The notes under the pieces: generated by a model
The model's database searches: none
What the model was told of the DNA's origin: nothing
What the model saw: the letters and a program-made list of their open reading frames with translations, nothing else
Program-made: the position numbers and the translations under genes
In this document: in pieces, positions 19,070-37,880 of the stretch
Position numbering within the stretch: the stretch's first letter is position 1
Layout of the letters: every line of letters starts with the position of its first letter
NCBI GenBank assembly: GCA_946187325.1
Contig: CAMHQC010000006.1
Location: 1-64,000 of the forward strand
Length of the DNA: 64,000 nucleotides
Direction of reading: 5' to 3'
Source: an uncultured Clostridia bacterium
Lineage (GTDB): Bacteria; Bacillota; Clostridia; Oscillospirales; Acutalibacteraceae

Positions 19070-19117
19070 TTTATGTAAAGTAAAAAAAGGTATCCCATTT
19101 GGAATACCTTTTTGATT

Positions 19118-19294
19118 GGTTGCGGAGACATAGTTCTATCTCCGGAAAATACCTGCCTCGCCTTTTACGGCTTGTTTAGGGGATAGTTTCATCTGCGCGG
19201 CGGTCTAAAAACGCTTACCCGAAGCGTTTTTACCTTCGATTTTCGCTGACGCTTAAATCTCGGTACGACCTGTTCAAGTCCTGCCTCCGCAACC
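19118..19294 (-). repeat. tRNA-tail mirror unit F1 (fMet locus)
   Basis: Bounded by GGTTGCGGAGA (19118-19128) and inverted TTCAAGTCCTGCCTCCGCAACC (19273-19294); contains hairpin TAAAAACGCTT..AAGCGTTTTTA and AAACAAGCCGTAAAAGG. Confidence 0.6.
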
Positions 19295-19340: not shown

Positions 19341-19416
<76 letters not shown>

Positions 19417-29439: not shown

Positions 29440-29620
29440 ACACTCGCTTCGAATCTCTTGCCTCAATCAAAAAAATAAGGAACCAACTCCAAAGAGCTAG
29501 TTCCTTATTTGGCGGAGGACAAGAGTATATCATAAATGCGAGGACTTTGTTCTCGAACCTTACGGCTTGTTCAAAGCTAAAGTATCATAAACGCTCCTCG
29601 TTAAAAATGCTCCACAGGAC
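29440..29620 (-). repeat. Truncated tRNA-tail mirror unit plus terminator (copy A), near-identical to 30509-30690
   Basis: CTTCGAATCTCTTGCC...AATAAGGAACCAACTC..GAGCTAGTTCCTTATTTGGCGGAGGACAAGAG...CGAACCTTACGGCTTGTTCAAAGCTAAAGTATCATAAACGCTCC. Confidence 0.8.
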
Positions 29621-29652
29621 ACACTCAATAAAGAATGTACCCTGTGTGATGT

Positions 29653-30240
29653 TTATACATTTCCCATTTTTACAGCTTGTAAAAAATCTTTAGCTTCATT
29701 ATTGGGATTTGCTTTTTTTGTTGCCTCAATATCATACCAAACATATTCTAATCCGTGAACAATAATAGGAATACTATTTCCAAATTTGTTCTTGATAAAT
29801 CCCTCAGATTGTAATCGGTTGGCAACTTCTGCTGCGATATTTACAAGTTCATAATGACCTACGGGACCCTTACCAACATATTCGTCATTTTCATCATACT
29901 CATCTTCTTCGGACTCATAACCGATATCGGTGATTCCGTTTTCATTATACCAATCAAAAAGCGCGTCAGTTATTCTGTTCGGTTCAAGCGGATCTATTAC
30001 AGATGTCTCATCTTGGCTCCAAAAGGCGTAATTCCAGCGTTCTTCGTCATATTTGCCCGCACCGTCACAAAAATCTTCGGTATTGTAACTTACAGCTAAA
30101 GAAGAAACGTTTTCGAATCCACTATATTGAAAATCCTCATTTGAATATACAAAAAACGATATAGCGTAAATTCCGTTATCATCCCAATCGGATACGATTT
30201 CTTTAATTCTATTATATATTATTTCTATTATATCTGTCAT
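29653..30240 (-). CDS. Hypothetical protein, DUF4303-like
   Basis: ORF with start MTDIIEIIYNRIKE after AGGTGAT; acidic globular sequence; family call is tentative. Confidence 0.55.
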   Translation of the reverse strand: MTDIIEIIYNRIKEIVSDWDDNGIYAISFFVYSNEDFQYSGFENVSSLAVSYNTEDFCDGAGKYDEERWNYAFWSQDETSVIDPLEPNRITDALFDWYNENGITDIGYESEEDEYDENDEYVGKGPVGHYELVNIAAEVANRLQSEGFIKNKFGNSIPIIVHGLEYVWYDIEATKKANPNNEAKDFLQAVKMGNV

Positions 30241-30303
30241 GTTATCACCTAAAAACAAATATATCACTTTTTTAAGTTATTGTCAAAAAAACATCTTTAT
30301 GTA

Positions 30304-30349
30304 GTGTGTCCCACCGGACTGTTTTATTAACGCCCTTTCGAATCCCTTA
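30304..30349 (-). repeat. Truncated tRNA-tail mirror unit S3
   Basis: Minus strand GGGATTCGAAAGGGCGTTAATAAAACAGTCCGGTGGGACAC, matching the Arg-locus unit start. Confidence 0.5.
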
Positions 30350-30389
30350 CTCAGAAAACAAAAACGACCCGATGGGTCGTTTCTGTTTT

Positions 30390-30531
30390 GGCTGAGCTGG
30401 CGTACTTTTTAAGTAATAAAGAATTATATCTCGAATCGTACGGCTTGTTAAAAGGATAGTGTGATAAACGCTCCTCCCTAAAAATGTCCCACTGGGACAT
30501 TTTCTTTACGGTCGGCTTCGAATCTCTTGTC
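30390..30531 (-). repeat. tRNA-tail mirror unit S2
   Basis: Hairpin AAATGTCCCagtGGGACATTTTT; AACAAGCCGTACGATTCGAGA; tail CTTCGAATCTCTTGTC. Confidence 0.65.
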
Positions 30532-30578
30532 TCAATCAAAAAAAATAAGGAACCAACTCAAAAGAGCTAGTTCCTTAT

Positions 30579-30724
30579 TTGGCGGAGGACAAGAATATAT
30601 CATAAATGCGAGGACTTTGTTCTCGAACCTTACGGCTTGTTCAAAGCTAAAGTATCATAAACGCTCCTCGTTAAAAATGCTCCACTGGAGCATTTTCTTA
30701 ACACTCGGCTTCGAATCTCTTGTC
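30579..30724 (-). repeat. tRNA-tail mirror unit S1
   Basis: TGGCGGAGGACAAGA (30579-30593) to inverted CTTCGAATCTCTTGTC (30709-30724); hairpin AAATGCTCCagtGGAGCATTTTT. Confidence 0.75.
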
Positions 30725-30774
30725 ATAAACCAAAATATAAAAGCCATATAGCCTAATAGGCTATATGGCTTTTA

Positions 30775-30864
30775 TGGCGGAGGACAAGAGATTCGAACTC
30801 TCGCGCCGGTCACCCGACCTACTCCCTTAGCAGGGGAGCCTCTTCACCACTTGAGTAATCCTCC
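30775..30864 (-). tRNA. tRNA-Ser(GCT)
   Basis: GGAGGAT acceptor, long variable arm, anticodon CTGCTAA, CCA. Confidence 0.95.
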
Positions 30865-31320: not shown

Positions 31321-31368
31321 TTTATTTTTTGATAAATTCTTTGCCTTTTTAAAGCAAGCTCAAAAAAC

Positions 31369-31488
31369 TTGCTAATAAAGGTGTAAGGTCTTGCTAATAA
31401 AAATTAGCAAAAAAACGGAAAATCTGCTAATAAAAAACGTCGATTTGCTAATAAGCTGTTTTTAAAAATTTGCAATATTTGCTAATAA
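31369..31488. repeat. Left-end iteron cluster TTGCTAATAA
   Basis: Copies at 31369, 31391, 31424 (CTGCTAATAA), 31445 and 31479, plus inverted TTAGCAA at 31404. Confidence 0.85.
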
Positions 31489-31587
31489 AAAGGTGATAGG
31501 TCACTTGTTGGAATTACGTTTTTTACTTGTAACTGAATATAAATGATAATAAAAAAAGCAGTTCACATTTGAACTGCTTTTTTTATC

Positions 31588-37414: not shown

Positions 37415-37515
37415 GTTTTAGTTAAAATCAGATTAACACCCAAACATTGTGAAACCCGCATAAATACTGAATTATTTGGCATTGTTTAAGTCTGAAAAAT
37501 CCGATGCGGGAGGTG

Positions 37516-37559
37516 CTCCTAAGCGAAAGGCCGGGGTTCGAATCCCTTTTGGCGCGCCA
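37516..37559 (+). pseudogene. 3' half of the disrupted tRNA-Arg(CCT)
   Basis: CTCCTAAGCGAAAGGCCGGGGTTCGAATCCCTTTTGGCGCGCCA; GCGAA pairs with TTCGC of 31085-31123; TTGGCGC pairs with GCGCCAA. Confidence 0.85.
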
Positions 37560-37563
37560 AAAC

Positions 37564-37704
37564 AAAAGGGATTCGAAAGGGCGTAAATAAAACAGTCCTG
37601 TGGACTGTTTTTAGCCCGTAGCGTTTATGATATTTTAGCTTTGAACAAGCCACAAGGTTCGAGATTAATCGTTTTATATATATTAATTGTACTTTTGGCG
37701 CGCC
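37564..37704 (+). repeat. tRNA-tail mirror unit U1 (Arg locus)
   Basis: AAAAGGGATTCGAA...CAGTCCtgtGGACTGTTTTT...GAACAAGCCACAAGGTTCGAGA...CTTTTGGCGCGCC. Confidence 0.8.
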
Positions 37705-37742
37705 AAAACAAAAGAGCCTTAACGGCTCTTTTTGTTTTGCTC

Positions 37743-37880
37743 AAAAGGGATTCGAAAGGGCGTAAATAATACAGTCCTGTGGACTGTTTTTAGCCCGTAG
37801 CGCTTATGAGTATTTCAGCAATGAACAAGCCGCAAGGTTCGAGATTAATCGTTTTATATATATTAATTGTACTTTTGGCG
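37743..37880 (+). repeat. tRNA-tail mirror unit U2 (Arg locus), near-identical to U1
   Basis: Near-identical repeat with GAACAAGCCGCAAGGTTCGAGA core, ending CTTTTGGCG. Confidence 0.8.

Follow-up and report, generated by a model that had tools for sequence, protein, structure and literature searches.

Short non-coding elements behind tRNA genes of gut Clostridia, with ends that match the neighbouring tRNA

Behind the tRNA-Ser(GCT) gene of an uncultured Clostridia bacterium (Acutalibacteraceae; assembly GCA_946187325.1, contig CAMHQC010000006.1) lies an array of short repeats, which we analysed in the 64,000-nucleotide (nt) stretch formed by positions 1 to 64,000 of that contig (the window). 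We propose, with a probability of roughly 0.6, that the repeats are small non-coding mobile elements whose fixed part, here called the unit (the conserved part between an inverted tRNA tail and a direct tail copy), is flanked by sequence copied from the target tRNA. If this is correct, an element without genes whose ends are always those of the adjacent tRNA would have a target choice unmatched by any system we tested. It would also account for the odd repeats found by the hundred at tRNA loci in a major bacterial order of the gut, and provide a testable system for mobile DNA that exploits essential genes without breaking them.

Element ends, local tRNA and fold

Reading along the tRNA, the order is intact tRNA, terminator hairpin and spacer, inverted tail, unit and direct tail copy. 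The unit has a constant length in this genus (112-118 nt). The inverted copy starts exactly at T54 of the tRNA (it ends in ..GAA, the complement of TTC) and is 9-22 nt long. The direct copy mostly runs from nt 63 through nt 76, CCA included, and is usually followed by a terminator, so that the duplicated tail comprises 14 nt plus terminator; the same terminator stands before and after the unit in loci L041, L153, L255 and L268. In distant relatives more of the T-arm is inverted (about nt 51-64), and the direct copy begins near nt 55-59.

The inverted copies of 62 elements were compared with the local tRNA, giving 95-100% agreement at nt 54-63, about 70% at nt 64-66 and lower values beyond. Strict assignment of inverted tails to one of 37 pooled isoacceptors was uninformative (the local tRNA was strictly best in 32 of 67) because T-arms are shared among tRNAs, and a test restricted to variable positions took its place. 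There, the same 62 elements agreed with the local tRNA at 0.90 and with other tRNAs at 0.53 (0 of 5000 permutations), and the local tRNA exceeded the mean of the others in every one of them. Among the 135 tRNAs of the fetched loci, an inverted tail with at least 9 matching nt was found for the own tRNA in 83, for another tRNA in 10 and for a shuffled one in 1. An earlier inspection of the letters without database searches (the sequence-only reading) had claimed that unit ends follow whichever tRNA is local instead of being fixed by the element, and these data uphold it.

The first half of the unit is a hairpin (covariation score 0.390, compared with 0.127 when shuffled and ≤0.071 in slid controls), which is enclosed by an outer helix; a tandem G.A pair of the outer helix is sometimes Watson-Crick instead. 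In the six variable pairs of the hairpin, both sides had changed in 69 cells and a wobble stood in 1, out of 228 cells, which confirms the compensatory changes noted by the sequence-only reading. Such a near-lack of wobble is odd for RNA and may stem from a DNA-level constraint or mutational process. The consensus of one family, f17, contains several helices with 23 pairs changed on both sides, and its closing helix is formed by the inverted tail and the tail copy. Several forms of the element contain GNRA-type loops and tandem G.A motifs.

Copies in the window and across genomes

The array occupies the minus strand, with the insertion point between nt 62 and 63 of tRNA-Ser(GCT). Listed from the tRNA outwards, its parts are:

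30775-30864, minus: tRNA-Ser(GCT), intact host gene (ARAGORN; Rfam tRNA)
30725-30774, minus: first terminator hairpin and spacer (inverted repeat, sequence)
30710-30724, minus: inverted tail 1, GACAAGAGATTCGAA, reverse complement of tRNA-Ser nt 54-68
30595-30709, minus: unit S1, 115 nt (model match, E=2e-26)
30580-30594, minus: direct tail copy 1, TCTTGTCCTCCGCCA (sequence, direct repeat)
30532-30579, minus: second terminator, hairpin unlike the first (inverted repeat)
30517-30531, minus: inverted tail 2, tRNA-Ser (inverted repeat)
30403-30516, minus: unit S2, 114 nt (model match, E=2e-24)
30389-30402, minus: direct tail copy of tRNA-Gln type, CGCCAGCTCAGCCA; possible chimera
30353-30388, minus: terminator of tRNA-Gln type (inverted repeat; comparison with contig C24)
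30337-30346, minus: inverted tail of tRNA-Gln type, GGGATTCGAA (sequence)
30312-30336, minus: 5' part of unit A, AGGGCG type, hairpin half CAGTCC
29617-30311, minus: inserted transposon-like segment, ~695 bp, terminal inverted repeats GGACACACTACATAAAGA / TCTTTATTGAGTGTGTCC
29653-30267, minus: open reading frame (ORF) of 204 aa in the inserted segment
29525-29616, minus: 3' part of unit A, near-identical to the 3' part of S1, hairpin half GGAGCA
29510-29524, minus: direct tail copy, tRNA-Ser (direct repeat)
29461-29509, minus: last terminator, same as the second (inverted repeat)
29448-29460, minus: last inverted tail, CAAGAGATTCGAA, end of the array (inverted repeat)

Sequence, repeats and tRNA calls thus confirm the alternation of tail, terminator, inverted tail and unit described by the sequence-only reading. 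Its attribution of the array to tRNA-Ser needs one correction: the third tail, terminator and inverted tail (30402-30337) are those of a tRNA-Gln, and the 5' part of S2 is identical to the unit at the tRNA-Gln locus at the end of contig C24. Unit A, the third unit, is split by the ~695-bp insertion, and its hairpin halves are mismatched (CAGTCC and GGAGCA). Because the repeats that bound the middle stretch (30402-29617) are also found at the ends of contigs C24 and C27, this stretch may be an assembly chimera or a recombination of the tRNA-Ser and tRNA-Gln arrays, and it is therefore unfit as evidence. The Gln cassette in the Ser array was accordingly dropped as proof of cassette exchange. The core ACAAGCCGTAAGGTTCGAGA (≤3 mismatches) occurs five times in the window and was absent from 100 shuffles.

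The inserted segment sits in the loop of the unit A hairpin, and its 204-aa ORF matches no Pfam family. The terminal repeat GGACACACTACATAAAGA / TCTTTATTGAGTGTGTCC was also seen inside the hairpin of a tRNA-Met copy in another genome (G427, L193). By analogy, it is as if the element family of the segment targeted the unit hairpin, as insertion sequence (IS) elements target repetitive extragenic palindromic (REP) sequences.

Two further tRNA loci of the window carry copies:

37510-37560, plus: 3' fragment of a tRNA-Arg-like gene, head of the second array
37563-37577, plus: inverted tail, CAAAAGGGATTCGAA
37578-37691, plus: unit U1
37692-37705, plus: direct tail copy, CTTTTGGCGCGCCA
37755-37870, plus: unit U2
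19341-19416, minus: tRNA-Met(CAT), the third tRNA in the window with a copy
19273-19294, minus: inverted tail at tRNA-Met, 22 nt, one mismatch opposite tRNA nt 63
19131-19272, minus: unit at tRNA-Met, a longer variant with an extra hairpin (model match, E=9e-10)
19116-19128, minus: direct tail copy, tRNA-Met

The tRNA-Met inverted tail is the longest in the window, and this copy (19131-19272) was absent from the unit list of the sequence-only reading.

Following a DNA search, a covariance model (R1) was built from 38 units and 115 positions and run over genomes most of which were assembled from metagenomes. It gave 27 matches at E≤1 in this ~1.95 Mb genome, 16 of them at E<1e-6. The copies whose surroundings were read follow Ser-GCT, Gly-TCC, Arg-CCG, Gln-TTG, Ser-CGA, Ser-GGA, Met (two genes), Pro and Leu tRNAs, and some follow the 3' fragment of a tRNA. 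Within the genus, BLAST found matches in 24 of 60 genomes (up to 14-17 each), and R1 found them in all 10 genomes tested, including two single-contig genomes with 11 and 12; complete genomes are among the carriers. One element family occupies more than 20 isoacceptors of one genus. The model also matched 42 of 295 genomes in an order-wide sample, whereas a phylum-wide sample of 300 yielded only this genome and one other. The carriers point to Ruminococcus and Oscillospiraceae from rumen and gut. Copies number 1-28 per genome and each tRNA is patchily occupied. Rfam gave no plausible family over the window units at gathering score, nor over the units of 14 loci at E≤1. The interpretation of the sequence-only reading is thus upheld in part: the outcomes it had named as contrary to its view (few copies, no association with tRNA ends, an Rfam family) did not occur.

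No similar DNA was present in 50,697 phage and 72,556 plasmid records. In IMG/VR we found a prophage inserted in a tRNA-Ser that adjoins a unit and, in a phage, the hairpin module alone in two copies that have no tRNA beside them. The latter (CGTTAAGAAAA-hairpin-TTTTTAG) are in phage IMGVR_UViG_3300029305_011737 (L168 248-276 and L169 1091-1119), between genes and nested in other small repeats. Elsewhere, at G000:C10:5668-5781 and G000:C2:1265-1387, one and the same hairpin-rich insert of ~100 nt (CGCGTCCTCGTTCGCTCTGTTCAT...) stands in place of the unit hairpin; the C2 copies lie on either side of a gene whose product was judged by eye to be PIN-like.

Insertion, movement and competing explanations

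The proposed insertion takes place at a GGTTCRA motif, nearly always in the T-arm of a tRNA gene; the tRNA is left intact. It is the downstream half of the target that both unit ends adjoin, one at T54 (inverted) and one at nt 63 (direct), 9 nt apart; with ordinary cut-and-paste, the two would adjoin opposite halves. Target-templated strand synthesis is, in our view, the most likely process. One unit end would be extended at each new insertion by copying the tRNA from T54 over a variable length, by DNA- or RNA-templated synthesis with switching, and the other would be joined at nt 63. The tail and terminator would end up duplicated, the tRNA would survive, and arrays would afterwards grow through tandem duplication. 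The inverted segment is predicted to pair with the target strand, best kept at nt 54-63, and could act as a guide, since this pairing spans the insertion point. The responsible enzyme probably acts in trans. The sequence-only reading also suggested that the tRNA end is regenerated, possibly by fold-back copying. In its simple form, through the terminator, fold-back does not fit well, because the inverted copy has a fixed start (T54) and a length that varies (9-22 nt), the terminator is flanked by unequal spacers, and the direct copy begins 9 nt further on, at nt 63.

An exception to the T-arm is tRNA-Pro(GGG), which in two genomes has its junctions in the anticodon arm (site TTCAAGAGG|CCGC, inverted copy GCGGCCTCTTGAA). 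No T-arm gives this inverted copy. In the anticodon arm GGTTCAAG (GGTTCAA motif) recurs, and the offset of 9 nt is the same as at T-arm sites, which argues that the sequence is recognised and the local target copied.

The similarity of units at different tRNAs of one genome is 0.663, which exceeds the 0.605 of units from different genomes (0 of 2000 permutations), and the same tRNA across genomes scores 0.604 against a background of 0.600 once sister genomes are merged. Supported clades of the unit tree mix tRNAs, for example Ser with Gly, or Arg, Met and Ser, and the orthologous tRNA-Ser(CGA) loci of genomes G453 and G449 differ by one unit. The within-genome likeness, the tRNA-Ser(CGA) difference and the mixed clades indicate, at the level of sequence comparison, that units move or are homogenised between tRNAs while their ends stay local.

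Several observations weigh against mobile elements of this kind. Genome searches tied no recombinase, transposase or reverse transcriptase to the element. We found no recent insertion with a clean pre-insertion site, and the tRNA-Ser(CGA) locus of G449 holds a decayed remnant, not a virgin site. Gene conversion could explain part of the within-genome likeness. Successive copies at several loci have unlike terminators, so that the copy of tail and terminator is not in every case a recent duplicate.

A more far-reaching version, which we put forward only tentatively, is a new class of non-coding tRNA-gene parasite, a structured RNA or single-stranded DNA that writes its own guide at each insertion. 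Its 5' segment would pair with the sense strand across the insertion site and it would be joined to nt 63 of the tRNA; strand synthesis copying the tail, terminator and inverted tail of the target would then fix the element and leave a working tRNA.

The strongest competitor, unlikely in our view though a serious one, is that a tyrosine recombinase moves the repeats as minimal integrative elements or cassettes. A cassette of tail (nt 63-76), terminator, inverted tail and unit would integrate at the T-arm and restore the tRNA end, either like tRNA-targeting islands or like integron cassettes with the palindrome of tail, terminator and inverted tail as folded site. The element does use T and anticodon arms, which integrases classically target (PMC8371274), displaced tails lie downstream of a restored tRNA end, tyrosine-recombinase-like proteins occur in 56 of 60 genus genomes, and terminators of successive copies can differ as if imported. 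However, a single family with matched tails stands at more than 20 isoacceptors, and the best-kept pairing (nt 54-62) is with a part of the tRNA outside the cassette, not with the cassette's own tail. In tRNA-Pro(GGG) the cut keeps its sequence offset but has another position in the stem-loop; an integron-like folded site (palindrome and recurrent bulge) is weakened by this site and by the nt 54-62 pairing. Terminator hairpin cores differ between tandem copies with identical flanks at L160 and L166, so that imported terminators are not needed, and we dropped them as proof of horizontal cassettes. The integron integrase (TIGR02249) exceeded the cut-off in 0 of 60 genus genomes. An integrase gene in viral contig L117 proved to be part of a prophage inserted between tRNA and unit.

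The replaced cores at L160 and L166, which are from families of the order, are always near-perfect palindromes, and hairpin turnover in these genomes seems to proceed through copying of an arm.

We regard it as rather improbable that tRNA operons here carry a functional RNA or terminator-linked structure, with tandem duplication and gene conversion as the only means of spread, in which the inverted tail pairs with the tRNA or the tail copy to control processing, decay or termination. The strong covariation, the multi-helix f17 consensus closed by inverted tail and tail copy, the GNRA-type loops and tandem G.A motifs, and the presence throughout the genus by model are what such an RNA would show. 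Against it stand the patchy occupancy with very different copy numbers, copies behind tRNA fragments and broken genes, the anticodon-arm insertion at tRNA-Pro(GGG), the location of units behind strong terminators, and a hairpin nearly free of G.U pairs, which is unusual in RNA. An artefact of metagenome assembly, suggested by the many copies at contig ends and by the repeat-bounded tRNA-Gln piece in the tRNA-Ser array, is refuted for the element family by two single-contig genomes and a 3-contig genome in which the same arrays recur, although the window stretch 30402-29617 may still be a chimera.

Known systems and neighbouring observations

Islands and prophages that target tRNAs by tyrosine recombinases share with the element insertion into the T or anticodon arm, an intact tRNA, an old 3' end pushed downstream and the direct repeat left behind. 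They differ in that the element is about 190 bp long, has no integrase or other gene in its units and carries an extra inverted copy of the tRNA end, at its many isoacceptors. Integron cassettes with their attC sites also form tandem arrays growing from one end and have a folded palindromic site with small bulges, whereas the element is almost gene-free and its best-kept pairing lies outside the cassette. No attC boxes were noticed by eye (no attC model was run), and nearly all units are gene-free.

REP/REPIN sequences with RAYT, and miniature inverted-repeat transposable elements (MITEs), are likewise short, non-coding, hairpin-bearing, multicopy and targets of IS insertion. The ends of our element instead derive from the target tRNA, with no fixed terminal inverted repeats and no constant short target-site duplication. 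The Y1 transposase (PF01797) is absent from G008, G054, G018 and G059, which hold 4-14 copies each. Group II introns, IscB/TnpB and the IS110 bridge RNA resemble the element in placing a target-complementary segment beside a structured core; the core of our element has no Rfam match and no protein partner was found. Reverse transcriptase (PF00078) is absent from the copy-carrying genomes G008, G054, G018, G059, G010 and others, which are partly incomplete, and no IS110 or IscB partner ORF was seen by eye beside the units (no family search was made).

The rtT repeats at tyrT of E. coli are tandem, stand behind a tRNA gene and include a piece of its 3' end. This is the likeness to our arrays; rtT differs in its single locus, and is not known to have an inverted tail or to have spread over many tRNAs. 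No known repeat family matched the element, and no description of such elements was found in the open-access PubMed Central (PMC) literature.

A sub-threshold match of the plant microRNA model MIR1151 to the L061 hairpin was taken as chance. Away from units, Rfam gave a Gut-1 RNA match on L122 (1105-1187, minus; 43.6 bits, cut-off 50), ~40 nt downstream of a tRNA-Tyr. In the window, several AT-rich repeats (TTGCTAATAAAAA) lie near tRNA-Arg(CCT) (31360-31500), and a pemK RNA (RF02913) is located at 2664-2758 on the plus strand (44.6 bits, above gathering score).
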